Below, in pieces: positions 26,020-64,000 of a stretch of DNA of 64,000 nt (the stretch's first letter is position 1; every line of letters begins with the position of its first letter). The translations under genes and the position numbers were made by a program. Below the pieces are notes generated by a model. It made no database searches. It was not told the DNA's origin and saw only the letters and a list, made by a program, of their open reading frames with translations. This DNA comes from Singulisphaera sp. GP187 (lineage in GTDB: Bacteria; Planctomycetota; Phycisphaerae; Phycisphaerales; SM1A02): NCBI GenBank assembly GCA_945869475.1, contig CAMBOV010000003.1, positions 1 through 64,000 of the forward strand, written 5' to 3'.

Positions 26020-26055
26020 TTCGCCATGATTCGCCATGATTCGCCATGATTCGCA
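26011..26055 (+). repeat. 10-bp tandem repeat carrying ATG codons
   Basis: Four successive units of KCGCCATGAT (26011-26050) plus a partial unit cover the STAS stop codon and lead into the next gene. Each unit contributes an ATG, and because the unit is 10 bp each ATG sits in a different frame. Only the ATGs at 26046 and 26055 open the chagasin-like frame. Confidence 0.85.
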
Positions 26056-26513
26056 TGATTCCCCCGAGAAGCCTGATGGGCGCAGTCGCAGTCGCAGTCG
26101 CTGACCTACTCGCACTCCTCGGCGTGAGTTGCACGACGAATCCGGCGCCATCTGCACTTGCGCGTCAACCGCTCGCCCCACCGCAAGTCGCTCCCATTGA
26201 TTTCAACCGCACGTGGCCAAAGACCGCGCTGCTGCACGTCGGACAGACACTTCGCGTTGTGCTTCCGCTGCGCGCGGGCTCGCCGTATTCCTGGCACATT
26301 GAATCCCCACTTCCGCTCTGTCTCGAAGTGCAGAGTGAGACCGTCCTGAGTTCGCTCGGCGCCGCACCGGGGGTGCCCCATGAGCAGATCATGACATTCA
26401 CCGCGACACAGGCTGGAGAGGGCGACCTCGAGTTCTTCTGCGCTCGTCCCCGCGAACCCAAGAGTGCCGCGCTCGAAATCCGAACGACGCGGGTCTTGGT
26501 GAGTGCGCCATGA
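26046..26513 (+). CDS. Chagasin-like (family I42) protease-inhibitor lipoprotein
   Basis: The 155-residue product has a signal peptide with a lipobox-like LLGVSC (Cys about residue 29). The mature part resembles the chagasin/I42 inhibitor fold: SPYSWHIE corresponds to the NPTTGYxW loop, GVPHEQIMTFTATQAGEGDLEFF to the G-x-P-G...F strand, and ARPRE to the RPWE loop. Members block papain-like cysteine proteases. The loop residues are only partly conserved here, so inhibition is not assured. The start lies in the repeat described above, and ATG 26055 is equally possible. Confidence 0.68.
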   Translation: MIRMIPPRSLMGAVAVAVADLLALLGVSCTTNPAPSALARQPLAPPQVAPIDFNRTWPKTALLHVGQTLRVVLPLRAGSPYSWHIESPLPLCLEVQSETVLSSLGAAPGVPHEQIMTFTATQAGEGDLEFFCARPREPKSAALEIRTTRVLVSAP

Positions 26514-26524
26514 GTCGGTAACGT
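26496..26524 (+). promoter_or_regulatory. Candidate leaderless promoter of glycine-zipper gene
   Basis: TTGGTG (26496-26501), a 17-nt spacer and TAACGT (26519-26524) precede ATG 26532 by 7 nt. The -35 match is weak. Confidence 0.35.
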
Positions 26525-26531
26525 GCTCCGT

Positions 26532-26906
26532 ATGCGACACAACACCCCATCGATCACCGCCACGACACTCTCACTTGCTCTGGCGCTCTCACTCGCAGGA
26601 TGCCAGAACGACACGGAGAATGGGGCGCTCATCGGCGCCGGTGGTGGTGCACTTGCGGGCGGGCTCATCGGCGGATGGGAAGGCGCGGCGATCGGAGCAG
26701 GCGCGGGCGCAATCGGCGGTGCGGTCGTCGGCAATTTGATGGACAGCTCGAAAGAGAAGCAGGCGGCGCAAACAAATGCGCAATCGAACCAACAGACTCA
26801 AGATCAGATTGCGCAGGAGCAACTCAAGCAGGAGAAGCTCAAGACCCAGCAGTTACAGCAACAACTCAATCAACAGCAACCTGGAACCCCTGCGCCGACT
26901 CCATGA
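26532..26906 (+). CDS. Glycine-zipper lipoprotein
   Basis: The 124-residue lipoprotein has a lipobox LSLAGC (Cys about residue 22), then a glycine-zipper stretch of alternating Gly/Ala over about 50 residues (GAGGGALAGGLIGG and GAGAGAIGGAVVG), and a Gln/Lys-rich coiled-coil tail (residues 78-115). Such proteins are envelope lipoproteins that pack in or against a membrane. The role is unknown. GTG 26523 could add three residues. Confidence 0.75.
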   Translation: MRHNTPSITATTLSLALALSLAGCQNDTENGALIGAGGGALAGGLIGGWEGAAIGAGAGAIGGAVVGNLMDSSKEKQAAQTNAQSNQQTQDQIAQEQLKQEKLKTQQLQQQLNQQQPGTPAPTP

Positions 26907-26943: not shown

Positions 26944-27576
26944 TCAGAATCCGATCGCGTTCTTCTCGCCTTGCTTGGTGATTGTCTTCTCTCCCTCCCA
27001 CACGAGTCTTCCTGAGGCCGTGTCAGCGAGCGACATCTGAAAAATGTATGAGATCTGCTTTGTGCTACCCGCAGAAGTCGCGTTCTCAAGAATCTTCGCG
27101 GTGATCGTGAAGTCTGGAAGATCGACGGGGTTCTGCGAGGTGCCATCGAGAAAACGTTTCGCCTCATACGTCTCTTTCGCCATCGGATCTTCGACCTTGC
27201 CGCCGAGTCCGACGGTCTGAGTGACTTGCACCTTGCCAGTCTGCAGCAGTGCGATGCGAATCTTCTTCATCAATTGGTCGGTGTCAAACTGCCGGCTCGT
27301 GTCATTGATCACCCTCGAAATCGCAAGCGCCGCGGGCTGCCGTGGCGCCTTCGCGAGCACTCCGCTGTCGACCATGCTTGCAACGAGCGCCTCGCTCGCC
27401 TGTTCAAAGTCTTGAATATTGACCTGATTCACGCTGACAACCAAGTCGGTTCCCTTCGAGTCAACATATTGCGTCGGACGGCAGCCACTGTTCACAAGAA
27501 GTGCGCAGCACGAGAGAGAGGTCAGAAGAGTTGTCGTCATGGTCGTCATGGTCGTCATGGTCGTCATCGTGGTCAT
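26944..27576 (-). CDS. LpoB-like lipoprotein (penicillin-binding-protein activator family)
   Basis: The 210-residue product starts with five M-T-T repeats, then a hydrophobic segment and the lipobox VNSGC (Cys about residue 33). The mature part resembles LpoB: VSVNQVNIQDFEQASEAL, MKKIRIALLQTGKVQV, and the final LADTASGRLVWEGEKTITK strand. In E. coli LpoB is an outer-membrane lipoprotein that activates PBP1b. It is the last gene of a reverse-strand set with YcfL-like, COG3014-like and CsgG-like genes, the first of which also neighbours lpoB in E. coli. Any of five in-frame ATGs (27576 down to 27540) could be the start. Confidence 0.78.
   Translation of the reverse strand: MTTMTTMTTMTTMTTTLLTSLSCCALLVNSGCRPTQYVDSKGTDLVVSVNQVNIQDFEQASEALVASMVDSGVLAKAPRQPAALAISRVINDTSRQFDTDQLMKKIRIALLQTGKVQVTQTVGLGGKVEDPMAKETYEAKRFLDGTSQNPVDLPDFTITAKILENATSAGSTKQISYIFQMSLADTASGRLVWEGEKTITKQGEKNAIGF
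27532..27576 (-). repeat. 9-bp tandem repeat supplying five in-frame start codons
   Basis: On the plus strand GGTCGTCAT repeats at 27541, 27550 and 27559 with near-copies on both sides. On the coding (minus) strand each unit reads ATG-ACG-ACS, so the protein begins with repeated Met-Thr-Thr, every Met being a possible start. Confidence 0.85.
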
Positions 27577-27610
27577 GTGAAAACTCCAAAAGAAAGTGTG
27601 AGGCACTCGG

Positions 27611-28081
27611 TCACGGGTCACTTGAATTCCAAGGATAGTTCGTGTCAGAAATCTGCAGCATCCAATCGCTGACCTGCGGACTCGGTGCGGTCGCATCAAC
27701 GACGATCGTCTGCTTGGGAAGGATCATGAGACTCTTCCAGGAATCCATCCCGCCAATGCGCATGCCCGACTTGTCGAACCACTCGAATCGGTAGGAAAAT
27801 CGTTGCTGCTGCATCTGATCGGAATAGATCGAGACTTGCACTTTCTTCGTGTCGCCGTTGACCGTGCTCTCGCGCGCCTCGACGACGTTCGCCTTTGACG
27901 CAAGCCACCAGTTGGGGGCCGTCTGCGTCACGCCCGTGACGGCGCCCTCGCCACCGCGCGTCGGACGCACGGTGTTGGTGAGGTTGCATCCACCAGTGAT
28001 GAGGCAAATGCTCAGCGCAACAAACGTGAGCGCACTCGTGCGAGGTGTGCGTGGTCTTGGGTGAAGCGTGTTCGTGTTCAT
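27611..28081 (-). CDS. YcfL-like (DUF1425) lipoprotein
   Basis: The 156-residue lipoprotein has the lipobox ITGGC (Cys about residue 32) and a small beta-domain with FSYRFEWFDKSGM, the signature stretch of the YcfL/DUF1425 family. In E. coli ycfL precedes lpoB, as here. Its start overlaps the stop of the COG3014-like gene by 4 bp. The molecular role of YcfL is unknown; conserved linkage suggests an envelope or peptidoglycan function. Confidence 0.78.
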   Translation of the reverse strand: MNTNTLHPRPRTPRTSALTFVALSICLITGGCNLTNTVRPTRGGEGAVTGVTQTAPNWWLASKANVVEARESTVNGDTKKVQVSIYSDQMQQQRFSYRFEWFDKSGMRIGGMDSWKSLMILPKQTIVVDATAPSPQVSDWMLQISDTNYPWNSSDP

Positions 28082-29541
28082 TGGCGTGGGATCCCAAAGG
28101 TGTGCACCGCCGGCGGAGTGCCAGGCGCGACGCTCTTAATGTAGATGATCGACACCATCTCCTGCGGCGCACTCACGGGTTCGAGTTTGGTGCCATCATC
28201 GAGCGTGATCTCGACCTCGCCGCCCGTGGGAGGCAAGTACACCCGCGCGTAGAAGAACTTCTTTGGCAGCGACTCCCACGTGCGAAGATCGGCACTGTTC
28301 ACCGCGACTTGGTAGATCACCGATGCGATGTAGAGCACGGCGAGCACCCCTGCCGCCGACCCGCCATTCTGCGAGCCGTTGGCGCTTTGCGATCCTGCGT
28401 ACAAGGCGTACGAAACAGCCGCTTTCGAAGCACTCGAGACGAGCGTCGCCAAGATGATCCCGGGAAGTCGATTCTGAAAGTCTGCCGTCACAACACGGTC
28501 GATGTCTGTCAAGAGTGTGCTCGAGGGTGACTGCGCGCCAATGCGCGCAGTGAATCCATTCACAGCATTGGGGTGATACTCGAGCTGCGGAAATGCCGCG
28601 CCGACGTATGGAACTCCCGGCAGAAAAAGTGGAATGTCGATGCGAAGTTCTTTGCGACTCGGCGCGAGTCCCGATTCCATCACGATGTAACACAGACGCT
28701 GCATCGCCCTGCCCTCTGAGAGATCGCTCGCGAGCAGTGCATCAACTGCGACAGGCGCGCCAGACTCTTTGCCCAACATTCCAGCCGTGCGCGAAAAACA
28801 TTGTCGGGCCTGCTCGAAATCGGACGGCGCGCCGCGCCCGAGATAGAAGACTCCTCGCAACCACGTAGCCACCGGCACCTCATACTCGGCGTAGCCCTGA
28901 AACTGCGCCATCGGCGCATAGGCGACATCGAGCTGTCCGTGAAAGTCGCGGCTCTTGAGCGTCGAGTTTGGGTTGTACTTCGACGCATCACTCTTGTTCG
29001 CCCTTCGCCATTCTTCGTTCTCTTCATCGATGCGCTTGCGTTCGCGATCGACGGCGTCTTCTTGCCAGTTTCGCGCCCGCACGAATTCGACTGAAGCCTT
29101 TTCTGGATGGCCCGTCTGCAGGTAGTTCATCGCCTGATAGGTGCACGCCAAGATCCGGTCGTAGGTGGTTCCGCGATAGGTTCGCACCGACTGATTCGTC
29201 ATCGCCGCGGCGACTTCTTCGGTGACCTTGGTGTCCGCCGCGAAATCGAGGTAAGGCTCCATCCGATTCCACGACTCTTCGAACGCGAGGATGCTCGCAT
29301 CCCACTGCCCAGCCGCGCGTGTAATCGCCCCTTGCTCGAGATCGAAGATCACTGCGTCGACCGCGTCGTCACGATACTTCTCAAAGACTGGTTGCATCTC
29401 GGATGCAGCCTTCGAAAAATCGCCGCCGTCGTAGGCGTCGACGACGTCCTTCATCCGATTGTGATGGCTGCAGCCACACGCACTGCACGCGGCGGCGATC
29501 GTCAGGGCGAATCTGGTGAGGTTGCCAATCGTCCGTGACAC
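28078..29541 (-). CDS. COG3014-like lipoprotein
   Basis: The 487-residue lipoprotein has a signal peptide with lipobox SACGC (Cys about residue 24). The N-terminal half is helical with TPR-like features (DFSKAASEM, LACTYQAMNYLQTGHPEKA), which fits the COG3014 family; a hydrophobic segment lies near residues 360-385 and a beta-rich end follows. It is 3 bp downstream of the CsgG-like gene and overlaps the YcfL-like gene. Families of this type accompany LpoB-like genes in some gammaproteobacteria. The function is unknown. Confidence 0.7.
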   Translation of the reverse strand: MSRTIGNLTRFALTIAAACSACGCSHHNRMKDVVDAYDGGDFSKAASEMQPVFEKYRDDAVDAVIFDLEQGAITRAAGQWDASILAFEESWNRMEPYLDFAADTKVTEEVAAAMTNQSVRTYRGTTYDRILACTYQAMNYLQTGHPEKASVEFVRARNWQEDAVDRERKRIDEENEEWRRANKSDASKYNPNSTLKSRDFHGQLDVAYAPMAQFQGYAEYEVPVATWLRGVFYLGRGAPSDFEQARQCFSRTAGMLGKESGAPVAVDALLASDLSEGRAMQRLCYIVMESGLAPSRKELRIDIPLFLPGVPYVGAAFPQLEYHPNAVNGFTARIGAQSPSSTLLTDIDRVVTADFQNRLPGIILATLVSSASKAAVSYALYAGSQSANGSQNGGSAAGVLAVLYIASVIYQVAVNSADLRTWESLPKKFFYARVYLPPTGGEVEITLDDGTKLEPVSAPQEMVSIIYIKSVAPGTPPAVHTFGIPRQ

Positions 29542-29544
29542 GGA

Positions 29545-31752
29545 TCAGGGAACGATGGAGCCTGGCGTCGCACCGGGCATCGCGCCCTGCGGCGAGCTCG
29601 GCCACCACCCAGGAACGATGTACGTCGGAGGTTGGTTCGTGTTAATCGTTGTCGAGTTCTGCATGTCGAGAACAACCCGTGAATTGCGGATGAACTCGGC
29701 GGTTGCGCGAATCATTTCAACATCGGCGTCGGTCAGTTGTTGCGCTTGGGTCAATGCCTGCATGAACTGCAACTGCGCCCGCCAGCGCAAGAGTCCTTCG
29801 TCGGTCAGTTGCAGCGGTACGGTGAGTGTCATCCCAGCGTGCACGTTGACCGTGCGCGACCACGGGCGAAAACCCTCGCACGAGACGGTGACCTTGTGAA
29901 GGCCTGGAAAGACGCTCAGTTGCTCGGGAGCACTTCCAACGACGATCCCATCGAGTTCGACGGACGCGTTGGTCGGCAGCAAGTTCCAATTGACTCCACT
30001 CACGACATATCGGCCCGTTGCAGGATCGGTCACAACGCCGGGGATCGACATGTCCTGCATCGTGCACATCACACGAAAGGACACATTGTCAGGCAAGGTC
30101 GCGCCGCCAGTCAAAATCGATTCACCGCAACGCTTCGCAACACTGTCGCCCACCGACTGCGCACACCTTCGAATGACAACGTCGATGAGATCTCGCTTCT
30201 GTTGCAACGTGGGCGATTCGCGGATCTTCTCAGTCGCAGTGACTGAGTCGCTTGTGATCACCTGTCCCTCGGCGCGGCCGAGCAAGCGGTAGGTCACATC
30301 CATCTGAGCTGAGCGAATGCTCGTGGTGGTGCCGTAGGCCTCAGAGTCGATGCGGTCGTTGATGTACGCGGTGATCGATGCGATCAAGATGTAGTCGACG
30401 CCCATCTGCTGCGCGAGGCGCAGCGCGCTTGTCTCGTCCGAAAGAAGGCGATCGAGATCTTTCTGCGGATCGACCCCCCCGCCACCATATGTGCCCGCGT
30501 TCGCTCCCGCAGCGGCAAACTTTGCGACTGCATTGAGCGTGTCTTCTCGACTCACCGTTGTGAAGCAAAGTCGATCGACTTGTGCGGCGATGTAATCCTC
30601 GAGCACCATCACTTTTTCTGGAGCAACATCGGCTGGACGGTTCTTCACGAAGATCGCCGCGGTGTATCGCTTGACAGTTGTTGGCGCGGGGGCGCCAGCG
30701 CCGGCGGCAGGCTGCGAAAGAGTGGCTGGCGCAGCGAGTGGTGCAGCTCCAGGCGTCATCTGTTCACCGTGCGCAGGCAGTGAAGCTGGCGCGCCTGCTC
30801 CCGCCGGGCAGATGGTCTGCGTCGAGAGGCGAACAATGCATCCCGGCGCCACGCCGAAGTCTTCGCCGCAGACTCCGCCGCGTGATGAACGTGCGTCGGC
30901 TGACTGAATCTGAATCCATCCAACTGAAATCTCTTCGCTGCCGATTGATTCGTTCGTGTCAGGATCGACGAGCGGTTTGCCTTGCGCGAAGACCTGCCAG
31001 ACTTGCCCCGTCACAACCCCAGCGCCTGCTCCGCGGCTCATCGTTGCAACGCGATCCGTGATCGCGAGAATTTTTGCCGGCATGAGTCGATCGACGATGT
31101 CATACGCCACCTTCTCAGCGGTCGAGCGCGCAATGGCCAGGATCATTGAATCCGTGAATCGCCCACCTTGCACCGTCGTATTCGTCGGATCGTTGACAAC
31201 CGATTGATCGTCGAAGTGTGAATTCACACTCTCAATGAGCCGACCTGTGGTCGTCTCAAAGACCTTCGTGACCAGCGCAAGTTTGACCAGTCGACGCGCC
31301 ATCTTCTGGCCGAGCGCTTCGAAGTGCGCCGTCTCAATGTAATCCTGAAAGTCTGCGATCTGCGGAATGATCAACCAACGAATTCCGCGCAGGGCGAAGC
31401 TCTTAGCGGCTTGTGCATCCATCGTGTCGACATTTCCGCTCGTTGCGAAATCTTGTTCCCGCACGAGTTGCGGCCACTCATTGCGCGCGATGACATCGAA
31501 CTTCGCAGTCGCTCCCACGGCGGCGGTCAACTGTCCATCGAGGGACTGCTTCACCCGTTCAAGTTCGAGCACCTGCTCGCCGCCGCGCGTTGCGAGTGTG
31601 GCAACGAGTGCGGGTAGCACCTCGACCGTTCCGATGCCGACTGCGACTCGCCCTGGCAGCGCTTGCGCGCTGGCCTGCGCAGAGGTCGGCGCGATGACTT
31701 GAGTGACGAGCTGAGTTGCGAGTGCGAGCGTTGAGAAATGTGAGAGCAGCAT
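29545..31752 (-). CDS. Secreted protein with two CsgG-like domains and a PEGA domain
   Basis: The 735-residue product starts with a signal peptide. Residues about 50-320 resemble a CsgG/LpoB-type domain (AAVGATAKFDVIARNEW, TKVFETTTGRLIES, STAEKVAYDIVDRLMP). An Ala/Pro-rich linker of about 60 residues follows, then a second similar domain (about 400-600: MGVDYILIASITAYI, RLLGRAEGQVI). A PEGA-type domain (SVELDGIVVGSAPEQLSV, GLHKVTVSCEGF) completes the protein. I start at ATG 31752, where the signal peptide begins. It is the first gene of the LpoB-like operon. A periplasmic scaffold or outer-membrane role is inferred only. Confidence 0.72.
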   Translation of the reverse strand: MLLSHFSTLALATQLVTQVIAPTSAQASAQALPGRVAVGIGTVEVLPALVATLATRGGEQVLELERVKQSLDGQLTAAVGATAKFDVIARNEWPQLVREQDFATSGNVDTMDAQAAKSFALRGIRWLIIPQIADFQDYIETAHFEALGQKMARRLVKLALVTKVFETTTGRLIESVNSHFDDQSVVNDPTNTTVQGGRFTDSMILAIARSTAEKVAYDIVDRLMPAKILAITDRVATMSRGAGAGVVTGQVWQVFAQGKPLVDPDTNESIGSEEISVGWIQIQSADARSSRGGVCGEDFGVAPGCIVRLSTQTICPAGAGAPASLPAHGEQMTPGAAPLAAPATLSQPAAGAGAPAPTTVKRYTAAIFVKNRPADVAPEKVMVLEDYIAAQVDRLCFTTVSREDTLNAVAKFAAAGANAGTYGGGGVDPQKDLDRLLSDETSALRLAQQMGVDYILIASITAYINDRIDSEAYGTTTSIRSAQMDVTYRLLGRAEGQVITSDSVTATEKIRESPTLQQKRDLIDVVIRRCAQSVGDSVAKRCGESILTGGATLPDNVSFRVMCTMQDMSIPGVVTDPATGRYVVSGVNWNLLPTNASVELDGIVVGSAPEQLSVFPGLHKVTVSCEGFRPWSRTVNVHAGMTLTVPLQLTDEGLLRWRAQLQFMQALTQAQQLTDADVEMIRATAEFIRNSRVVLDMQNSTTINTNQPPTYIVPGWWPSSPQGAMPGATPGSIVP

Positions 31753-41404: not shown

Positions 41405-43081
41405 CTAGTCAGCCGCTCGCGAGCGCTTCCAACTGACGATCACGAGATCGCCTCGTGTGTCAGAGGCATCTGGCGGCGGGAGCGTCGGCGACGTGAGCAG
41501 ACGATCGAAATCAGTGAGAGTCACGACAAGTGCGATCCCATCCCCTCGAATGATTCGCGCTGAAACTTCTTGCCACGAGAGCAGTCGCGCGCGATCCACC
41601 GCCATGTCGAGTTCGTTGTCGAACTCACCAGGACTGCCGGCGATCACGAGGTCGCGCCGTCCAGTGACCCAACTCACGCAGTGCCCAAGTTGCGCGGTGG
41701 TGATGAGCGTTGGTGCATCGACAAGTGACTGTTGATTCGCTTCGAGTGCCGCCCACGGCAACTGACTCTCTCGGACAAATGCGCTGGGAAAGAGAAACGG
41801 AATCAGCATCAGCATCGCGATGGGAGCCGTCGCTGTTCGCATCAGCCAGAGTTGCGCAGTTCGTGCGCGCCAACTCAACGCATCAAGTTCAGACCAGATG
41901 ATGAGCGCCGCCGCGATGGAGACCCAGCGAAGTGATTCGTGGGATGGCCACAGCGTTGGCACACCGAGCGATTCACCGCCGACCAGTGCGAACGCCACTG
42001 CAACGACTGCGAGAATGCGTAAGAGCCAACGGCCGCACTGCTCTCCGACGCCCGCAACGATGTGCCCCGACTCGTGTGCTGTGAACAGCGCGATCGTGAC
42101 GACCGCCGCGAGCGCTGGATAGAGCGGCAGCACATAGGTCGGCACTTTTCCCTTGCTCAAGGAGAGCGCCATCAGCGGTGCGGCGATCCAGCAGAGGGTG
42201 AATCTCATGCCGTCGTTGAGTGCCCCTGCCGCGCGCAGAGACCGCCAGACGCGCGGCCAGAGCAACGTCCAGCACAGTGCGCCCACTGGAAAGAGCAGCA
42301 GCAAATACCACCACGGTTGCGTGTGTTGGTTGGCATCCGGTGCGGCGAATCGCCGAAAATGCTCGATGAAAAGAAAGGCCTCCCAGAATGTCGGTTCAGA
42401 ATCGTGCAGCATCCACGCGATCGGCGCGGCCACGGCGGCGGCGACGGCGAGGGGGACCCAGGGCAGCACAACAATGTCGCGCCATCGTCGCTGCCACGCG
42501 AGAAATGCCAGTGCGCTCACCGCTGGAATCGCGAACCCGAGCAGACCCTTCGTTAAAAATGCGAGCGCCGAGGCCACGCCTGCAAGCGCAAGCCATCCAA
42601 TCCGCGCGCGACCGCTTGACGTGCACGCGCCATAAAAAGCCGCGAGCGTGGCGGCGACGAAGGCAGAAAAGATTGGATCGAGCGACGCAACACCACCCAT
42701 GACGAGTGGACCGATCGTCGTCGCCTGCACGAGAAACGCTGCGACTCCAATCTCGCGGCGACGTGTGATTCGCCCGGCAAGCCATCCAGCCGCAAGTGCG
42801 CTGACCGCCGTCGCAAGCATGCTCGGAATGCGGATGGCAGTCGCGGTCTCTCCAAAGAGTGAGATGCTCGCACCCATCAACCACATTCCAAGCGGCGGCT
42901 TCTCGTAGTAATGAAAGCCCGCCATGCGAAGAGCAAACCACTCGCCACTTTCGGCCATCTCTGCCGCCATGATTCCGTAGCGCGCCTCATCGGGAGAGAC
43001 GAGTGGCCGCACTCCAATGAAGAGCACGCTCACCGCGAGAAAGACGAGCGCCGCCCAGGCGACTTGAGCGCGCAGACTCAT
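41405..43081 (-). CDS. arnT: Lipid A 4-amino-4-deoxy-L-arabinose transferase-like (ArnT family)
   Basis: The 558-residue GT-C glycosyltransferase has the family 39/PMT layout: a first span, then PLVSPDEARYGIMAAEMAES, with the catalytic-type Asp-Glu and the arginine that binds the lipid carrier, HYYEKPPLGMWL, about ten further spans, and LSKGKVPTYVLPLYPALA typical of ArnT. The last third is periplasmic. I start at ATG 43081, since the 72 extra residues upstream are Arg-rich and overlap the deformylase gene. ArnT moves L-Ara4N from undecaprenyl phosphate onto lipid A phosphates. Context with arnBCAD supports this over other PMT-family roles. Confidence 0.87.
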   Translation of the reverse strand: MSLRAQVAWAALVFLAVSVLFIGVRPLVSPDEARYGIMAAEMAESGEWFALRMAGFHYYEKPPLGMWLMGASISLFGETATAIRIPSMLATAVSALAAGWLAGRITRRREIGVAAFLVQATTIGPLVMGGVASLDPIFSAFVAATLAAFYGACTSSGRARIGWLALAGVASALAFLTKGLLGFAIPAVSALAFLAWQRRWRDIVVLPWVPLAVAAAVAAPIAWMLHDSEPTFWEAFLFIEHFRRFAAPDANQHTQPWWYLLLLFPVGALCWTLLWPRVWRSLRAAGALNDGMRFTLCWIAAPLMALSLSKGKVPTYVLPLYPALAAVVTIALFTAHESGHIVAGVGEQCGRWLLRILAVVAVAFALVGGESLGVPTLWPSHESLRWVSIAAALIIWSELDALSWRARTAQLWLMRTATAPIAMLMLIPFLFPSAFVRESQLPWAALEANQQSLVDAPTLITTAQLGHCVSWVTGRRDLVIAGSPGEFDNELDMAVDRARLLSWQEVSARIIRGDGIALVVTLTDFDRLLTSPTLPPPDASDTRGDLVIVSWKRSRAAD

Positions 43082-43112
43082 GAGTGCCACTCCGCGCTGC
43101 GCGTCCAGAGAC

Positions 43113-44012
43113 TCATGAGCGAGCCTCCGCACCACGCGTGCAGAGCCATCCCTCGCGACCGGTGATTGTGCCCCTGCTGATCGCGCACGGCAGTGCACCT
43201 GGTTGCTTCGCGAGCCATGAGCCGAGTGGTTCGAACTGATGCCCACGCGCACTCGCACGATCAAGAAACTGCGCGAAGAGTTCGCTCTTCGCGCCACCCT
43301 CGCTCTCCGCGTGAATCGTCAAGACATGTGGCTTGCCATCGCCCATTCGATGAAGCAGTGCGTCGTTCCACGCGCGGTCTGCGCCACTTGCACGACCGAC
43401 GCCCTCGTCGTAGGTCGGCAGATCGACTGGCACTTGTGGCTGATCGATTGAGGCGCCGTGCACCAGCGGTAAGAACGGTTCTGCGACCCCACGACAATCG
43501 CTGCGAAATGCGAATGCGCGCGAACTCTTCAAAGCGAGCACCCGCTCGGTGCAGCGCCATCCTGGAGCGGCTGCAGTTCGTGGCATGTGACCGAGGATCG
43601 TCGCGAGAGTCTCCGTGGCGCGCGTGAGCTCACCTTCGAGTTGCGCATCCGAGAGTGAATCGATCCCAACTTGCCAACGGTGGTGATCCCATGCATGCAC
43701 TCCCATCTCATGGCCATCACGATCAGGTTGTCGAATCGTCTCTGCCAGGCGAGCGCCGATCTGCGGTCCTGGCCACAGCGTGCCACGCAAGAGAATCTCC
43801 CACCCGTACAGACTCGGCGCACCCGATCGCCACATCTTCAGCGCGAACGATGGACGCAGCATGCGCGCGAGATGCCGTCCCATATTGTCAGGACCAAGCG
43901 TGACGTACCACGTCGCGCGAATCTTGCGAGCATTGAGCAGTGCGAGCAGGCGCGGCATCCCATCGCGTGTTCCGCGAAAGGTGTCGACGTCAACTCGAAG
44001 CCCGATTGTCAC
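43113..44012 (-). CDS. arnD: 4-deoxy-4-formamido-L-arabinose-phosphoundecaprenol deformylase
   Basis: The 299-residue protein is very close to enterobacterial ArnD, sharing GLRVDVDTFRGTR, LGPDNMGRH, SLYGWEILL, HAWDHH, SDCRG, TIHAE and the final GREGWL. It belongs to the polysaccharide-deacetylase family; the metal ligands are expected at the first Asp pair and in HAWDHH. It removes the formyl group from the lipid-linked sugar. I start at GTG 44012, which gives the family's usual N-terminus and lies 8 bp after the arnA stop; the frame is open 33 codons further into arnA. Confidence 0.93.
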   Translation of the reverse strand: MTIGLRVDVDTFRGTRDGMPRLLALLNARKIRATWYVTLGPDNMGRHLARMLRPSFALKMWRSGAPSLYGWEILLRGTLWPGPQIGARLAETIRQPDRDGHEMGVHAWDHHRWQVGIDSLSDAQLEGELTRATETLATILGHMPRTAAAPGWRCTERVLALKSSRAFAFRSDCRGVAEPFLPLVHGASIDQPQVPVDLPTYDEGVGRASGADRAWNDALLHRMGDGKPHVLTIHAESEGGAKSELFAQFLDRASARGHQFEPLGSWLAKQPGALPCAISRGTITGREGWLCTRGAEARS

Positions 44013-44020
44013 GGGATTCT

Positions 44021-46054
44021 CTATGCACGCACCGCTGCGCTGGAGACTTTCTTCGTCACGCCAGCGGGCACCACGAGACCATGGTCGCGCGCGTGCTGCT
44101 GCAAGAACCAATCAAGCGTGCGCTCGACGCTCGTGTGCGTCGCGACCGTGGGAGTCCATCCGATCAGCGTCTGCGCATTTCGAATACTTGGACGGCGATG
44201 CTGCACATCCTCGTATCCCTGCCCGTAATACGTCGTGCTTTCGATTTGCTGGTAGCCCGCGAATGGCGGATAGCACGAGCGAAGTGGATGGCGCTCAAAC
44301 GCCTCGACGAGCGACTCAGCGAGTTCTTTGATGCTCGCTTCATTGTCTGGATTGCCGATATTGAAGATCCGGCCATCGCACCGACTCTCCTTGTTCTCGA
44401 TGATGCGAAAGAGGCACTCGATGCCTTCGTCGACTTCGGTGAAACATCGTCGCTGCGTGCCGCCGTCGACAAGCAGAATCGGCGTGCCTTCGACGAGATT
44501 CAATATGAGCTGTGTGATCGCGCGCGAACTTCCGACGCGTGCCGAGTCGAGCGAGTCAAGACGTGGACCGATCCAATTGAAGGGGCGGAAGAGGCTGAAT
44601 CGAAGCCCGCGCTGCATGCCGTACGCCCAGATGACTCGATCGAGCAACTGTTTGCTCGCCGAGTAAATCCACCGTTGCCGGTGAATCGGTCCCGTGACAA
44701 GTGGGCTCGACTCTTCGTCGAAGAGTTCGTCGGTGCACATGCCGTAGACCTCAGAGGTGCTTGGAAAGATGAGTCGCTTTCCGTACTTCACGCAGTCGCG
44801 CACGACTCGCAAGTTCTCTTCGAAGTCGAGCTCGAACACTCGCAGTGGATTGCGCACATATTCAATTGGCGTCGCGATGGCGACGAGCGGAAGGATGACA
44901 TCACACTTGCGAACGTGAAACTCGACCCACTCGCGGTTGATCGCGATGTCTCCTTCGACGAAGTGAAATCGTGGATGCGCTGTCAGCGAGCCGAGGTTTT
45001 CGCTGTTGAGGTCCATGCCAAAAACCTCATACTTCTCATCCTGCAGGAGCCTCTCAGAGAGTTGGCTGCCGATGAATCCGTTGACGCCCAGGATGAGCAC
45101 CGAGGTGCGCTTGCGCAACTTCGCGACGGCCATCGCCCCGAGTCGCATGCGTGGAAGGAGATTGAGATCTTGCGCGAGTTGCGATCCAGATGACCAGACT
45201 CCATCGGCCCCCTGCCCCTCTTGAATCTCGAGCGCGCCTTGACCGCATGCGATCACGAGCGGCGACGACGAGAGAATCTCGCCTGGTTGGCCTGTTGCAG
45301 GATGGCCAGTCGCAACGCGCGCCCGCCACACCATGATCTTGCGGGTTCCAGCGAATGTGTAGGCGCCTGGCCATGGATGCGCGACTGCTCGCACGAGGTT
45401 GCGAAGTTCACTCGCTGACTTCGTCCAGTTGATCAGTCCATCGGCGGGAGTGCGCTTGCCCATCACGGTCGCCTTCGATTCATCTTGCGGCGTACGCGGC
45501 GCGGTGCCGCTCGTGAGCAGCGGAATCACCTCTTCAAGAATCGACGCTGACTCGGTCGCGATGCGTGCCGTGAGCGAACGCGCATCGTCGTCGATGCCGA
45601 TGGCGATCGTGCGCTGCGCAATGATGTCGCCCGCATCAGCCTTGTCAGCCATGAAGTGCACGGTGACGCCCGTCGCTGCTTCTCCGTTGACGAGCACCCA
45701 GTTAATCGGAGCGCGCCCGCGATAGGTCGGCAGCAGCGCCGAGTGCAGGTTCACGCATCCCGCAGGAAAAAGGGCGCGAATCTTCGCGCCAACCATGTTG
45801 CGGTAGTGAAACGACATCAAGAGCTCGGGCTTCATCGCGCGGATGCGCTCAACCCAAATCGGATGATCGAGCTTCTCTGGAGCATGCACCGGGATGCCAT
45901 GTTGTGCTGCGATTTTCGCGACGCTCGCATACCAGCCTCCTTCGGCGGGATCGTCGCGGTGGGTGAACACAGCGACGACGTCGAGTCCACTTCGGATCGC
46001 GGCTTGCAGCGAGGCTGCACCAATTTCGTGATAGGCAAGAACAACAGTTCGCAT
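44021..46054 (-). CDS. arnA: Bifunctional UDP-glucuronate decarboxylase / UDP-Ara4N formyltransferase
   Basis: The 677-residue protein has both ArnA domains at full length. The N-terminal formyltransferase (1-300) has [18 protein letters not shown] with catalytic Asn102, His104 and Asp140, identical in number to E. coli ArnA. The C-terminal dehydrogenase/decarboxylase has the NAD motif [11 protein letters not shown], then PSTSEVYG (Thr433, Glu435) and [10 protein letters not shown] (Tyr464, Lys468), each one position from E. coli. It oxidises and decarboxylates UDP-glucuronate, and formylates UDP-Ara4N. Its order between arnC and arnD matches enterobacteria. Confidence 0.97.
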
Positions 46055-46074
46055 GAGAGAGCTCCGGCTTGGGG

Positions 46075-47094
46075 TTAGGAGTGATGCTCGTGAGAGGCAT
46101 GCGTTCGACCCACAGTCGATTCGGTGCGCTCACCCAAGGTCTCTCCGACAATTCGATCAATGATGTATCGCGGACGCTCGCGCACATCCGCGTGAATGCG
46201 TCCGATGTATTCGCCCATGAGGCCAAGCGCGACAAACTGTGCGCCGATGAAAAAGAACGCGATGGCGAAGAGTGTGAAGACTCCATTCGCTGCCCACTCG
46301 GCGCCGTACGCAAAGCGCAAGACCAAGATGAGCGCGCCGAAGCCGATCGAGAGTGCAGAGATCGCCGCGCCGACAATTGAGAGCATTCGCAGCGGAGCCG
46401 TCGTCATGCAGGTCAACAGGTCAAACTGCAGGTTGATGAGTGTCAGAAACGAATACTTGCTCGTGCCACGCGCGCGCTCGGCGTGACCGACTGGAATCTC
46501 GGTGACCCGCTTGGCGAAGAGATTCGCAAGCACTGGAATAAACGTGTGGCGCTCGCGACAACTGAGCATCGCGTCGACGACGCGCCTGCGATACGCGCGC
46601 AGCATGCAGCCATAGTCGCGCAATTTCACGCCGGTCGACTTGCGCACCATTATGTTGATGAGACCGCTGAAAACTTTTCGAAAGAGCGCATCTTGACGAT
46701 CTTGGCGAACCGATCCGACCACGTCGAACCCTTCATCGATCTTGGCGACGAGCGCGCCAATCTCTTCTGGTGGATTCTGCAAGTCTGCATCGAGCGTGAT
46801 GAGGATGTCACCTTGTGCAGCGCCGAATCCGCAGAGGATCGCGTTGTGCTGTCCATAGTTGCGATTCAACAAGAGCACCTTGATCTCGCCCGGGTACGCA
46901 GCAGCAGCCGCTGCGAGAAGGTCAGATGAGCCATCGCGACTCCCATCATCGACGAGAATGAGTTCCCATGCGCGCCCAAGCGCGCGACATGCGAGTAACG
47001 TTCGCTCGAGCAGTTCGGAGATGTTGTCTCGCTCGTTATAGACGGGAATCACGACGGTGACCGACGCTCGCTCATTCGTGGTGGCTGTACTCAT
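46075..47094 (-). CDS. arnC: Undecaprenyl-phosphate 4-deoxy-4-formamido-L-arabinose transferase
   Basis: The 339-residue family 2 glycosyltransferase has [22 protein letters not shown], the metal-binding [12 protein letters not shown] and the stretch [18 protein letters not shown], all typical of ArnC. Two C-terminal spans (about 235-300) hold it at the membrane. It transfers the formylated sugar from UDP to undecaprenyl phosphate. ATG 47094 overlaps the arnB stop by 4 bp. Confidence 0.94.
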
Positions 47095-48272
47095 CGCACT
47101 CCCCCACTCACGGTCGCACGCGACACTGCGAGCGTCTCTTTGATCGCGTCGATGACGCTCGACGCGTCGGCATCCGACATATCCGGAAAGCACGGAATCG
47201 TGCAGATTCGCGCTGAATTCCACTCCGTGTTGGGAAGCTGACCGATCGACTCCCCGCGATTCTCGCGATACCAGCGCTGCGTGTGCGCGGCAAGAAAGTG
47301 GATACCCGTGCCGACGTTGCGCTTCTTGAGGCCATCCATGAATGTCGCACGATCGAGTCCGCACACGCGCTCATCAACTCGCACGACAAAGAGATGACGC
47401 GCGTGTCGATGAGACCACTGTGGATCAGCTAACGGCACGATGCCGTCGATGGATGCGAGTTCTGCTTTGTAGTACTGCGCGAGTGCGTCGCGACGCGCGA
47501 TGAACGCATCAAGCCGAGGCAACTGCCTCACCGCGAGCACGGCATTCATGTCGGGCATGTTCTGTTTGAATCCAGGCTCTTGCACTTGCGCTTGTGGCGA
47601 TCGCCCCTGCTGCGTGCGGTCATGCGCATCGACGGCGAGTCCATGAAAGCGCAATCGCCGGACGCGATTGGCGAGGTCGCTGTCGTTGGTGGTCAAAACT
47701 CCACCTTCACCTGAGGTGATGTTCTTGATCGGATGCAACGAGAAGATCGCGGGGTCGTCGCCACCAACTTCGCAGCCCTTGTATTTCGTGCCGATCGCAT
47801 GCGCGGCATCTTCGAGAAGCGCCACGCCGCGTGCCCGACAGACCGCGCGGATGGCATCAAGATCGACCGGCGCCCCCGCGTAATGCACGGGAATCACGAC
47901 CTTTGTGCGAGGAGTAATCGCCGCGTCAATCGCAGCAGCACTCACGAGCAGTGTCTCGCGGTCAACGTCGACAAAGACGTTGCGCGCTCCCAGAAGCTCA
48001 ACGACATTTGGCGTCGAGACCCACGTCATTGATGGACCGACAACCTCATCCCCAGCGCCGACGCCCATCGCGAGTAAGGTCAGGTGCATCAACGCCGTTC
48101 CAGAACTCGCAGCGACTGCCTCGCGCGCGCCGGTACGAGTCGCGATCATCTGTTCAAGCTCAGTGACCTTTGGACCGGTTGTGATCCATCCACTGCGAAG
48201 AACCTCTGCGACGGATGCGATGTCTTCTTCTGTGATCGATGGCCTGCAAAAAGGCAGGAACGAGGGGCGCAT
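47091..48272 (-). CDS. arnB: UDP-4-amino-4-deoxy-L-arabinose aminotransferase
   Basis: The 393-residue PLP enzyme of the DegT/DnrJ/EryC1 family begins with [14 protein letters not shown], close to enterobacterial ArnB. It has [22 protein letters not shown] and [15 protein letters not shown] with the PLP lysine at residue 183. It transfers an amino group from glutamate to the UDP-4-keto-pentose made by ArnA. I start at ATG 48272, which gives the family's N-terminus; the frame is open eight codons further. It is the first gene of the arn operon. Confidence 0.95.
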
Positions 48273-54608: not shown

Positions 54609-55672
54609 TGCAGACGATCGCAATCTTCGTTGCCGCCTACCGCGAACTGAGCGCGCGGCGACTCTTTTGGCTCGCGCTTGCGATCACGCTCGTCGTTGTC
54701 GCACTCTTCGCCTGCTTGGGAATCAATGAAACAGGCGTCAGTTTCTTGGGACGCACCTTCGAGAATCCAGTGTTCAACACGGTGACGACCTCTCCCGAGA
54801 CCTTTTATAAACAACTCTTCGTGACGCTCGGCGTCGAGTGGTGGCTCGGACTCATCTCGACGCTGCTCGCTCTGGTCACAACCTGCGGCATCGTTCCTGA
54901 CCTCGTCGCTCCGGGATCGATCGACCTGCTCCTCGCCAAGCCGATCTCGAGAGCCCGGCTCTTTCTCACGAAGTATGCGACCGGATTGCTCTTCGCTGCC
55001 CTTCAGGTCTTTGTCTTCTCGGCTGCGAGTTTCGTCGTCATCGGCATCCGTGGCGGCGCGTGGGAACTCTCACTCTTCACCGCTGTTCCGATCGTAACGA
55101 TCTTCTACAGCTTTCTCTTCAGCATTTGCGCACTGGTTGGAGTCATCACCCGCTCATCGGTCGCATCACTCATCCTGACCCTGCTTGCGTGGGCGGTCAT
55201 CTTTACCCTGAACTTTTCAGAGTCGATGGTGAGTGGCGGTCGCATCGCAAACGACCTCGAAGGCAAAGCGATTGAAGCCGCTCTGGCGAACACAGAAAAT
55301 CCTCCCGACGAAGAGGCGAGCGAAGAACTCCTCAGCGACCTCGAGCGCGTGAAAGAACACGCCCCGAACTGGAAATCCGTTCACCAGTGGCTCTACGCAA
55401 CCAAGACATGCCTACCAAAGACAACCGACACGCTCGGCCTGCTCGATCGATGGCTCATCGACTCATCCGCCATGCCCGAGCGCGCAGAAGAGTCAACGCG
55501 CGGCCTTCGCCGCTCGTTCGGTTCGCGACGTGTCAAGGGAAGCTCTCTCGACAAAGCAATCCGCGACGAACAAGACTCGCACTCAGTGTGGTGGGTGCTT
55601 GGAACAAGTTTGCTCTTCGAGGCGTGCGTGCTTGCGCTCGCAACGCTGATCTTCAGCCGGCGTGACTATTAG
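54605..55672 (+). CDS. ABC-2 type permease
   Basis: The 355-residue membrane protein has about six spans, the first after REL and the second near residues 80-105, with LLAKPISRARLFLTKY, a loop motif of the NosY/ABC-2 family. A long hydrophilic insertion of about 120 residues (around 215-330) separates the fifth and last spans and is rich in Glu and Arg. It forms an exporter with the preceding ATPase. The gene ends in a 4-nt stop-stop overlap (TTAG) with mltA. Confidence 0.82.
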   Translation: MMQTIAIFVAAYRELSARRLFWLALAITLVVVALFACLGINETGVSFLGRTFENPVFNTVTTSPETFYKQLFVTLGVEWWLGLISTLLALVTTCGIVPDLVAPGSIDLLLAKPISRARLFLTKYATGLLFAALQVFVFSAASFVVIGIRGGAWELSLFTAVPIVTIFYSFLFSICALVGVITRSSVASLILTLLAWAVIFTLNFSESMVSGGRIANDLEGKAIEAALANTENPPDEEASEELLSDLERVKEHAPNWKSVHQWLYATKTCLPKTTDTLGLLDRWLIDSSAMPERAEESTRGLRRSFGSRRVKGSSLDKAIRDEQDSHSVWWVLGTSLLFEACVLALATLIFSRRDY

Positions 55673-56988
55673 CCCGCATTGCCGCTGCTCTTGGGGATGG
55701 CCTTCGCGGCTGGCTTTCGAGCAGGGAGCGGATACTGCGAGACGTACTCGGGCTTCAGAAAGAAGTAGTAGAGCGTTCCTTCGCAGTACTGACCGCCCGC
55801 GAGAATTTCTGCGGATGGTCCGATGCCCATAAAAATGTCTGCACGACCTGGAGCACGAATAGCGCCGCCCGTGTCTTGATCGAGCATGAAGCGTTGAAAA
55901 GGTTGCTTCGATCCACTGTAGGAGCTCGACTGCGTGCTCACGAACATCACGCCACCAGGTGGATAGACGCTCTTGTCAGTCGCGAGTGAAACTTTGTCAG
56001 TGACTTTGACGCCGAGGCTTCCAGCTGGCCAATTCTTGCCGTCGTACTTCTGAAAGAACGTGTAGCGATTGTTGAGATTGATCGCGGCCATCACAGTGGT
56101 CGGGTCCTTCTCATACAAGCGGCGAATCGCGCTCAGGTTCAATTGGCTCTCCGGAATCGCATTCGATGCGACGAGGCTCGTGCCGAGTCCTACGTATTCG
56201 CCGTCGGTTGCGCCCGCGTATCCGATGAAGAGCACCTTGTCATCGGGCAAGAGCAACTTCGCGCTTCCATTCACCTGAACGATGTACGCATCGAGTGCTG
56301 TCGGAAACCACGCGAGTTCGAGTCCGTTGAGCATTCCACTCGAGACGATCTCTGCGCGCGTTGGCCACGGCGCAATCTCGCTCTCAGAAATGCGGCGACC
56401 GAGCGCCTTGCCAGTCACCGGATCTGTTTCGAGTTCCTTGGGACGGCGATAAATCGGAAACTCAAAGCCGGGAGTCTTGACGAGAGTCGCTTTGAATTCG
56501 GGCGCGTAATAGCCAGTGAAAAGAACTCCGCCCTTTCCATTCCATCCCTTGGTCTGCCAACAATCAAACATCTGCATGAGCGCGCTGTTGAATGATGCTT
56601 GGTCTGCGCTCTCGTTGAGAATCTGGCGAAATGCGATGACGCTTGATGATGCTTGATCCCATGTGCAGACTTCAGGAAACGGAAACATCTGCGGAAAGCG
56701 CGATCGGCTCGACGGGCTCTCGTACCACGTCTGATCTTGCCCGAGCGCCTCGATGAGGTACGCATCGCGCGAACTCCACGCGCTCGTCAAATCTGGCCAC
56801 GCCTCACCTGGTTCGAGTTTGCGCAGTGCGCACTCACCTGGCGCGAGCGGTCGCGCGAAGTCAGCGACGGGCACTGGCTGCGGCGTCTCGCAACCCAACA
56901 GCCCGGCGAAGAGTCCACCCGTGACAGCGGCGAGAGACAAAAGAGAAATTCGTGGTGAAAGCCCGATAGTTCGTGTGCATCCTTGCAT
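55669..56988 (-). CDS. mltA: Membrane-bound lytic murein transglycosylase A
   Basis: The 439-residue lipoprotein has a lipobox GLLGC (Cys about residue 33), then the MltA core: FTGYYAPEFKATL, PIYRRP, PDDKVLFIGYAGATDGEYVGLG, and the 3D-type end with DQDTGGAIRAPGRADIFMG, which contains the catalytic aspartate. It cleaves peptidoglycan between MurNAc and GlcNAc from the outer membrane. ATG 56988 is chosen over 56997 because a TACGAT box lies 7 nt before it. Confidence 0.92.
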   Translation of the reverse strand: MQGCTRTIGLSPRISLLSLAAVTGGLFAGLLGCETPQPVPVADFARPLAPGECALRKLEPGEAWPDLTSAWSSRDAYLIEALGQDQTWYESPSSRSRFPQMFPFPEVCTWDQASSSVIAFRQILNESADQASFNSALMQMFDCWQTKGWNGKGGVLFTGYYAPEFKATLVKTPGFEFPIYRRPKELETDPVTGKALGRRISESEIAPWPTRAEIVSSGMLNGLELAWFPTALDAYIVQVNGSAKLLLPDDKVLFIGYAGATDGEYVGLGTSLVASNAIPESQLNLSAIRRLYEKDPTTVMAAINLNNRYTFFQKYDGKNWPAGSLGVKVTDKVSLATDKSVYPPGGVMFVSTQSSSYSGSKQPFQRFMLDQDTGGAIRAPGRADIFMGIGPSAEILAGGQYCEGTLYYFFLKPEYVSQYPLPARKPAAKAIPKSSGNAG

Positions 56989-56995
56989 GTCGGCC

Positions 56996-57001
56996 ATCGT
57001 A
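56996..57001 (-). promoter_or_regulatory. Candidate -10 box of mltA
   Basis: TACGAT on the minus strand lies 7 nt before ATG 56988 and overlaps the alternative ATG 56997, which argues against the latter as start. No Shine-Dalgarno site is present. Confidence 0.35.
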
Positions 57002-62995: not shown

Positions 62996-64000
62996 CTACG
63001 TGGTCGTTGCCGAGGTGCGAAACGCTTGTCCTCGCAAGAGGAATTCTGCAATCTGCTCTGCGCTGTCCTGAGGAGCCATCGACTGCAGCGCCTTGCGCAT
63101 TGCATAGCGCTGCTCTGCCGACTCCATCAGCGCGAGCACGCGGGCGCCCAATCCTCGAGCATTCTTCTGCGGATCGATCTCATCGAGTTCCATCGCGGCC
63201 GCTCCCGCGTGCACGAGCGGAAGCGCATTCTCGCGTTGATGCAGATCCTTGTGATAGGGATACGGCGCGAACACCGTTGGAATCTGATTCGCCTGCGCCT
63301 CAGCGACTGAACTCGCACCAGCACGACTCAGCGCAAGATCTGCGGCACCCCACGCGATCCCAATTCGGTGCATGAAGGGCAGCACAGCTGCGCGCACACC
63401 CGCGTAGCGCCACGCTCGCTCATATCGCGCGACTCCACCCACCGGATTCGCACCGCACAAATGCAACACCTGCCACTCTGCGAAGGCTTTCCCGTGCACA
63501 CTAGCGAGCAGCACCGCGAGTTCATTGAGACTCTGCGCACCTTGCGACGCTCCCGTGACGAGCAGCACCGGAACGTTGGGATCGAGTCCCAACTCTGCGC
63601 GGCAGAGTTCTTTTGATGCGGGCGCGAGTGCGATTCGGCGAATGGGCATCCCAATCACCGCTTCGGCAAAGTTTGCAATATGTGGCACTGCAACCGCCGA
63701 AATCGTTCGCGTCGCTCGACGAGCAACGAGTCGATTCGCACGCCCTGGGGTCGCGTCGAGATTGACGAGCAACACGCGAACCCCCGCCCGGTGAGCTTCG
63801 CTGGCAACAACCGGCGTCACGAAACCGCCAAGCGAGACAATCCAATCCGGCTTGGTTGCAGCGATGAGCGCGCGCGCATCGGCACGACCACGAAGAAGTC
63901 CAAGTGCGAATCGCAGAAATCGCCGGGGGTCGGTCGAGAACGGCTCGGCACGAATGGCAAAAAACTCCGCCCCAGCTTCGGTCAACATCGCTGCATCGAT
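62996..64000 (-). CDS. murG: MurG (UDP-GlcNAc:lipid I transferase), N-terminus cut by window edge
   Basis: At least 334 residues are present; the start lies beyond 64000, so the N-terminal GGTGGH motif is not visible. What remains matches MurG: SLGGFVTPVVASEAHRAGV, ASQGAQSLNEL (the second Gly/Ser-rich loop), and ALSRAGASSVAEAQANQIPTVFAPYPY with the UDP-GlcNAc-binding region, then HQRENALPL. It adds GlcNAc to lipid I on the inner face of the membrane to make lipid II. It shows that this planctomycete-like organism makes peptidoglycan, in line with mltA and the LpoB-like operon. Confidence 0.9.
   Translation of the reverse strand: MDAAMLTEAGAEFFAIRAEPFSTDPRRFLRFALGLLRGRADARALIAATKPDWIVSLGGFVTPVVASEAHRAGVRVLLVNLDATPGRANRLVARRATRTISAVAVPHIANFAEAVIGMPIRRIALAPASKELCRAELGLDPNVPVLLVTGASQGAQSLNELAVLLASVHGKAFAEWQVLHLCGANPVGGVARYERAWRYAGVRAAVLPFMHRIGIAWGAADLALSRAGASSVAEAQANQIPTVFAPYPYHKDLHQRENALPLVHAGAAAMELDEIDPQKNARGLGARVLALMESAEQRYAMRKALQSMAPQDSAEQIAEFLLRGQAFRTSATTT

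Follow-up and report, generated by a model that had tools for sequence, protein, structure and literature searches.

LpoB and related outer-membrane systems

Textbooks present LpoB as the outer-membrane activator of a peptidoglycan synthase. FlgT, a component of the Vibrio flagellar H ring, and TsaP, the type IV pilus secretin collar, belong to rings around outer-membrane machines, CsgG is the curli secretion channel, and GNA1162, a CsgG-fold lipoprotein of Neisseria, belongs to a multi-lipoprotein operon. Families related to several of these proteins are encoded together in a reverse-strand operon of Singulisphaera sp. GP187 (Phycisphaerae; contig CAMBOV010000003.1 of assembly GCA_945869475.1), found in a stretch of 64,000 nucleotides called here the window. 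In transcription order, the four genes of this cassette encode a CsgG-like protein with a PEGA domain (CsgG/PEGA), a COG3014-like lipoprotein, a YcfL/DUF1425 lipoprotein and an LpoB-family lipoprotein (Table 1). The reading favored here, with a probability of about one half, is that the products of the operon assemble into a conserved lipoprotein complex of the outer membrane, FlgT/TsaP-like, that predates the activation of penicillin-binding protein 1B (PBP1B) and does not work through PBP1B switching.

E. coli LpoB is about 145 Å long with a proline-rich N-terminus of 54 unstructured residues, and it is therefore able to reach PBP1B (PMC9593243, PMC4632607). LpoB and UB2H, the domain on which it docks, were described as confined to enterobacteria and recently evolved, on stringent cut-offs (100 bits for LpoB), in Typas 2010 (PMC3060616). 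In E. coli K-12, ycfL and lpoB are indeed adjacent, as stated in the initial annotation of the window, and lie between hinT and thiK. The PF07233 and PF13036 families thus follow each other there in the same order as in the window, whereas no match to a COG3014 or CsgG-like gene is found in the 6-kb E. coli locus.

A gene cassette linked across several phyla

All four genes predicted in the initial annotation are present at their assigned positions. The CsgG/PEGA stop and the COG3014 start are 3 nt apart, the COG3014 and YcfL genes overlap by 4 nt, and the LpoB frame opens within ycfL, with its likely start codon 34 nt past the ycfL stop. Three lipobox-like signals and one Sec-like signal, judged by eye, agree with the proposed export of the four products. 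The LpoB-like protein matches PF13036 (E 1.6e-23, 83.7 bits for a cut-off of 22.3) and is the only match to this family in the genome, while its neighbor matches PF07233 (DUF1425; E 1.7e-18, 66.8 bits for a cut-off of 28.3) and weakly resembles PDB 3o0l (E 1.1e-4). The LpoB signal peptide starts with five MTT tripeptides, a coding repeat at the likely start codon (about 27529-27576, minus strand).

Linkage was followed in three sets of loci. The first comprises 41 loci of the class Phycisphaerae, namely the window and 40 loci hand-picked from a larger number of matches in the class. LpoB is present in all 41, COG3014 in 39, YcfL in 30 and CsgG/PEGA in 12, and 22 loci carry two LpoB-like genes. 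The two loci without COG3014 are L124, whose contig ends 228 nt after LpoB, and L127, with 1.5 kb left. Unsupervised clustering of the 604 open reading frames of these loci recovers COG3014 in 36 loci, LpoB in 26 and CsgG in 6, with YcfL split over two clusters of 8 and 5 loci; the best non-cassette family recurs in 5 loci. The recurrence of the cassette families is more than chance.

The second set, called here the named set, contains the best 80 of 286 relatives found with LpoB as query, the COG3014 alignment being too weakly conserved for this purpose, and covers seven phyla. Its sampling is uneven and its gene counts are lower bounds, some contigs being short: YcfL occurs in at least 77 loci, COG3014 in at least 75 and a CsgG-like gene in at least 47, with the order COG3014-YcfL-LpoB-CsgG in 39 and COG3014-YcfL-LpoB alone in 33. 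Named bearers include Planctomycetota, Lentisphaerota, Opitutales, Chlorobiaceae, Desulfobacteria-like and other deltaproteobacterial metagenome-assembled genomes (MAGs), and, among Gammaproteobacteria, Marinobacter, Halomonas, Zhongshania and Methylomonas. An extra gene of 461-548 codons stands between LpoB and the CsgG-like gene in two deltaproteobacterial loci, one Marinobacter locus and one Aidingimonas locus. Both extra genes that were scanned, in a Marinobacter and a Desulfobacteraceae locus (L171:4201-5847 and L194:8619-10022), carry DUF6844, one of them together with GYF_2.

The third set derives from 114 gammaproteobacterial genomes, 30 of which have a PF13036 match, full in 25 (E 5e-22 or better). 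Of the 24 LpoB loci retrieved, 22 contain COG3014, the exceptions being L251 and L260. YcfL accompanies LpoB in 7, and a separate CsgG-like gene occurs in 4, a count in which matches of the rebuilt CsgG profile on LpoB frames were ignored as this profile cross-matches LpoB. In L245 and L254, COG3014 and LpoB are separated by a gap of at least 1 kb. Genetic linkage of the cassette families holds in several phyla, their range covering Planctomycetota, Chlorobiota, Thermodesulfobacteriota, MAGs labelled Myxococcota, Lentisphaerota, Verrucomicrobiota and Gammaproteobacteria. The location outside proteobacteria, highlighted in the initial annotation, is therefore nothing special since Gammaproteobacteria have the cassette as well. 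No description of it was found in the literature searched, whose coverage mostly excluded subscription papers. The suggestion of an envelope complex not yet described stands in so far as the module is conserved and a description was not found; an LpoB/PBP1B-like function is not supported.

LpoB-like proteins without a class A penicillin-binding protein

That function was expected to be accompanied by a class A penicillin-binding protein (PBP), recognized here by its glycosyltransferase domain PF00912, a marker with control matches in 10 of 14 known genomes. The genome of the window (2.55 Mb, 32 contigs, 96.7% complete) gives no PF00912 match (UB2H itself was not searched there). In the class sample of 101 Phycisphaerae genomes, PF00912 is found in 6 and PF13036 in 55, the former occurring in 3 of the 55 LpoB genomes and in 3 of the 46 others. 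One PF00912 genome without a PF13036 match, G039, carries LpoB-like, YcfL and COG3014 genes by their own profiles (L129). SEDS proteins are present in 99 of the 101 genomes and the transpeptidase in 100, with two matches each in the genome of the window. As both are present there and PF00912 has no match, cell-wall synthesis presumably proceeds without class A PBPs, in line with the classification of Planctomyces as lacking them in PMC8406291.

Absence of class A PBPs, which the initial annotation named as a refuting result, extends to 52 of the 55 class genomes with LpoB and to 9 of 24 named cassette genomes. Because this kind of enzyme, the target of LpoB, was not found in the genome of the window, the LpoB-like protein encoded there probably does not have the role of E. 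coli LpoB. A nearly full UB2H domain is found in 6 of the 24 named cassette genomes, five gammaproteobacterial and one labelled Desulfobacteraceae. In the gammaproteobacterial sample, UB2H (at least 57 bits) occurs in 59 of 114 genomes and together with LpoB in 17, that is in 17 of 25 LpoB genomes vs 42 of 89 others, a difference that is not significant (Fisher p 0.074, odds ratio 2.4). Partial UB2H matches in long frames, which are probably Mfd, were left out of these counts.

The LpoB of the window stays below the cut-off of the NCBIfam equivalog TIGR02722 (87.5 vs 110.55 bits). Other cassette LpoBs pass it, as in Phycisphaerae (L091:9564-10178, 135.8 bits) and in Chlorobiaceae (L179:8001-8609, 148.2 bits), and the genome bearing the first, G063, has no PF00912 match; such passes are likely over-annotation. 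The PF13036 and TIGR02722 results together take the LpoB family far beyond enterobacteria.

A short tether without proline enrichment

Tether length was counted between the lipobox Cys and the conserved N-x-T motif, the last Cys being taken where a row has several lipobox-like ones. It spans 58 residues with 5% proline in the LpoB of the window and 89 residues with 19% proline in E. coli LpoB. The other rows have a median of 58 residues (range 49-73) and a mean of 6% proline in class rows (n=50), 58 (57-59) and 3% in named-genome rows (n=79), and 60 (54-71) and 4.5% in gammaproteobacterial rows (n=20). A long, proline-rich tether of the E. coli type is not found in the window or in any of the 150 non-E. 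coli rows measured, none of which exceeds 73 residues. These rows and E. coli make up 151 of 166 LpoB rows, the other 15 lacking a lipobox recognized by pattern; by eye, 14 of the 15 have a Cys at a similarly short distance and L107 is truncated. When the first Cys is used instead, 17 rows change: 15 reach 63-73 residues, one class row 120 and the window 117, the last because a lipobox-like stretch lies in the open frame upstream of the likely ATG. The side of the window thus differs from the E. coli LpoB-PBP1B pair by lacking both the long proline-rich tether and the class A PBP.

An unlikely alternative is that the LpoB-like protein activates a SEDS/class B PBP pair and is partnered at the outer membrane by COG3014, YcfL and CsgG/PEGA. 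It would fit the PF13036 membership and the two SEDS and two transpeptidase matches in the genome. The window also contains, as initially annotated, mltA (55669-56997) and a murG-like gene (62996-64000), and an ftsW/rodA-family gene follows just past it (C3:64249-65343). However, a tether that is short and not proline-rich would make the inner membrane hard to reach, mltA and murG are about 24 kb and 31 kb away, beyond the stretches that were clustered, and non-cassette families recur in at most 5 of the 41 class loci. Moreover, many SEDS genomes have no LpoB, PF13036 being found in 55 of 101 class genomes vs 99 of 101 for SEDS.

A CsgG/PEGA protein closest to FlgT

The length of 735 residues given for the first protein of the operon is consistent with a start at 31752, and Pfam recognizes CsgG in two stretches (PF03783, E 2.5e-7, 30.7 bits for a cut-off of 20.8) as well as PEGA (PF08308). 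The structure model has a mean pLDDT of 65 and a pTM of 0.47, with residues 40-312 (domain 1) mostly good. In Foldseek searches, domain 1 matches FlgT (3w1e, E 5.2e-14) and 8z5n_0, a chain of the LPHT ring that is presumably FlgT (2.3e-13), ahead of CsgG (4uv2, 5.1e-6); weaker matches are CT253, HP0492, PelC, GNA1162 and LptE. VIA ranks FlgT at Z 13.8 (root-mean-square deviation 11.7, 232 residues aligned), with CsgG tied at 13.0 and TolB at about 11. The structural check suggested with the initial annotation thus returns a CsgG/TolB-N fold with FlgT closest, not a structure unlike LpoB or CsgG. As LpoB is described as having a TolB N-terminal fold (PMC7267771), LpoB and the CsgG-like protein share a fold class.

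As in FlgT and TsaP, a TolB-N-like domain is followed by a small C-terminal domain. The family profile searched against PDB sequences points the same way: the C-terminal domain matches a LysM-domain protein of 6ve2 (E 4.4e-9), presumably TsaP, and weakly TsaP in 3jc8 (E 0.002), and the middle matches CsgG (3.9e-5). In contrast to FlgT and TsaP, the protein of the window has PEGA and a second CsgG-like half fused to it and no LysM by Pfam. Pfam FlgT_M gives no match to it and reaches its relatives only below cut-off. In L101 and L102 two neighboring genes encode the halves separately, which suggests that the protein of the window arose by fusion. GNA1162 has the same fold class (4hrv, E 2.5e-4) but belongs to a different family.

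These data also bear on the possibility that CsgG/PEGA forms an export channel in the outer membrane, as CsgG does, to which the three lipoproteins are accessory. The PF03783 score above cut-off, the place of CsgG among the top folds (within 1 Z unit of FlgT) and a long beta hairpin in the modelled domain speak for it. Yet the stretches aligned to the two CsgG membrane hairpins, with residue numbers as we assume them, are 17 residues with 5 charged vs 21 with 3 in CsgG, and 18 with 2 charged vs 25 with 6; both are shorter, one being more charged and the other less. Unlike CsgG, the protein has no N-terminal lipobox by eye; Foldseek places FlgT, which is not known to form a pore, ahead of CsgG and extends the match over the next domain; and no substrate-like gene recurs beside CsgG/PEGA in the class loci. 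A channel is improbable, somewhat more so than a SEDS/class B partner.

FlgT being the top fold match, the cassette could be a flagellar accessory resembling the Vibrio FlgO/P/T H ring, all the more as the P-ring protein FlgI is present in 38 of the 63 cassette genomes searched. The other 25, some of them incomplete assemblies, have no full or near-full FlgI match and include three Chlorobiaceae and the genome of the window, so that a flagellar role is not general and this explanation is nearly refuted. In the genome of the window, which has no full-length FlgI, only a partial match is found, in a 674-residue frame. Partial matches in frames of about 550-900 residues were not counted, and G089 was counted on positions 1-255 of 343. 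The 674-residue product itself (L266:5430-7454, contig C1; FlgI match E 1e-22) is lipoprotein-like, and similar proteins of about 550-900 residues occur in many members of the class.

The COG3014-like lipoprotein

Pfam assigns no family to the third gene at its cut-off; the label COG3014, given in the initial annotation and adopted here, is presumptive, and the family is defined by the alignments made here. A C-terminal motif A-D-x-R-x-W-x-x-L-P is conserved, and 18 columns are invariant in 52 sequences. The model (pLDDT 86.4, pTM 0.85) shows a TPR N-half and a C-half of beta strands with a long helical hairpin. The C-half (residues 283-487) is barely covered by the VIA fold list. This list includes LpoP (6w5q, Z 15.3, root-mean-square deviation 2.3, 105 residues aligned), which sits among many generic TPR proteins, so no kinship to LpoP is claimed. 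The hairpin is hydrophobic in the window (best 19-residue Kyte-Doolittle mean 2.07), the sole row of the 52 above 1.6; the family is not (median 1.17), and a membrane-spanning hairpin was dropped.

Position of E. coli LpoB

In a tree of 65 LpoBs, the protein of the window groups with that of L090 (support 100/98). A branch supported at 100/99 separates the window, the named set, 8 other class rows and 2 gammaproteobacterial rows beyond L103 from 22 gammaproteobacterial rows, 3 class rows and E. coli, and linkage to COG3014 is found on both sides of it. E. coli LpoB has the longest end branch (4.62 vs a median of 0.32), for which fast evolution after recruitment is one reading, and is placed among six gammaproteobacterial cassette LpoBs (87/98, not starred). 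It looks like a derived remnant. We see even odds that LpoB did not originate as a PBP1B activator in enterobacteria but is a core component of an old outer-membrane COG3014-LpoB complex, often joined by YcfL and a FlgT/CsgG-like protein and present in several phyla, also in bacteria lacking class A PBPs; enterobacteria would have dismantled this complex, making LpoB a PBP1B activator with a new proline-rich arm.

A possible ring at the outer membrane

Three lipobox-bearing or short-tethered lipoproteins, encoded together with a relative of FlgT and TsaP in fold, hint at a collar or ring on the inner side of the outer membrane. We infer the complex, the ring and its task as follows. COG3014, YcfL and LpoB would have their lipid anchors in the inner leaflet of the outer membrane and remain close to it, the TPR half of COG3014 serving as a scaffold. 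The CsgG-like protein, through its FlgT/TsaP-like domain 1, may polymerize or dock as a periplasmic ring or collar, to which PEGA would add a surface-binding module. The complex could stabilize an outer-membrane structure or link it with the cell wall. In E. coli, ycfL and lpoB alone would have been retained, LpoB being re-tethered with a long proline-rich arm to reach PBP1B through the peptidoglycan. The job of the cassette is likely older than, and different from, PBP1B activation and is likely performed at the outer membrane.

Several points weigh against this outer-membrane complex. CsgG/PEGA is patchy, being carried by 12 of the 41 class loci and standing as a gene of its own in 4 of the 24 gammaproteobacterial loci, as is YcfL (7 of these 24), so that the COG3014-LpoB pair alone is nearly constant. 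Class A PBPs are present in 15 of the 24 named cassette genomes and UB2H in 17 of the 25 gammaproteobacterial LpoB genomes (odds ratio 2.4), and a PBP role is possible in these bacteria. The LpoBs of the window and of E. coli lie on opposite sides of the 100/99 branch, and the exact position of the latter is unsure given its 87/98 support, its long branch and a bootstrap that had not settled. One class row reaches 16% proline, the highest share outside E. coli, which is the single enterobacterial LpoB examined. Confidence is low for the second half of the CsgG/PEGA model, and the PDB matches of the COG3014-like TPR half are generic TPR folds.

Features of the operon and neighboring genes

Table 1. 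Features of the cassette operon, in positions of the window
Feature	Position	Strand	Basis
LpoB-family lipoprotein, 210 residues from ATG 27576 (frame open to 27699)	26944..27576	-	PF13036
LpoB Cys and short N-terminal tether, about 22 residues to the first likely helix	27415..27483	-	lipobox, helix by eye
YcfL/DUF1425 lipoprotein	27611..28081	-	PF07233; weak PDB 3o0l match
COG3014-like TPR lipoprotein	28078..29541	-	conserved motif; structure model
CsgG/FlgT-like and PEGA protein, 735 residues (frame open to 31806), Sec-type signal by eye	29545..31752	-	Pfam
Domain 1 (residues 40-312), TolB-N/CsgG fold and small domain, FlgT M+C-like	30817..31635	-	Foldseek, VIA
PEGA domain, residues 611-668 of the 753-residue frame	29803..29976	-	PF08308, E 3.5e-11

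Directly downstream of the operon and convergent with it, a small glycine-zipper (YMGG-like) protein is encoded on the plus strand (26523-26906), adjoined by a gene for a protein with an I42 peptidase-inhibitor domain (26046-26513). Further away, on the minus strand (41405-47364), genes for a PMT-type transferase, a polysaccharide deacetylase, a formyltransferase-epimerase fusion and a GT2 protein, which we take to be ArnT-like, ArnD-like, ArnA-like and ArnC-like, possibly form a lipid A aminoarabinose cluster in a planctomycete.

Implications for the LpoB family and the planctomycete envelope

The LpoB family reaches much further than described, is accompanied almost constantly by COG3014 in its gene neighborhood and includes bearers without a detectable class A PBP, which opens the origin of Lpo control to testing. 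For bacteria that have no class A PBP, the name "penicillin-binding protein activator LpoB" given automatically through TIGR02722 is probably wrong. A ring-like lipoprotein complex, as proposed here, would provide a defined target in the poorly known envelope of planctomycetes.

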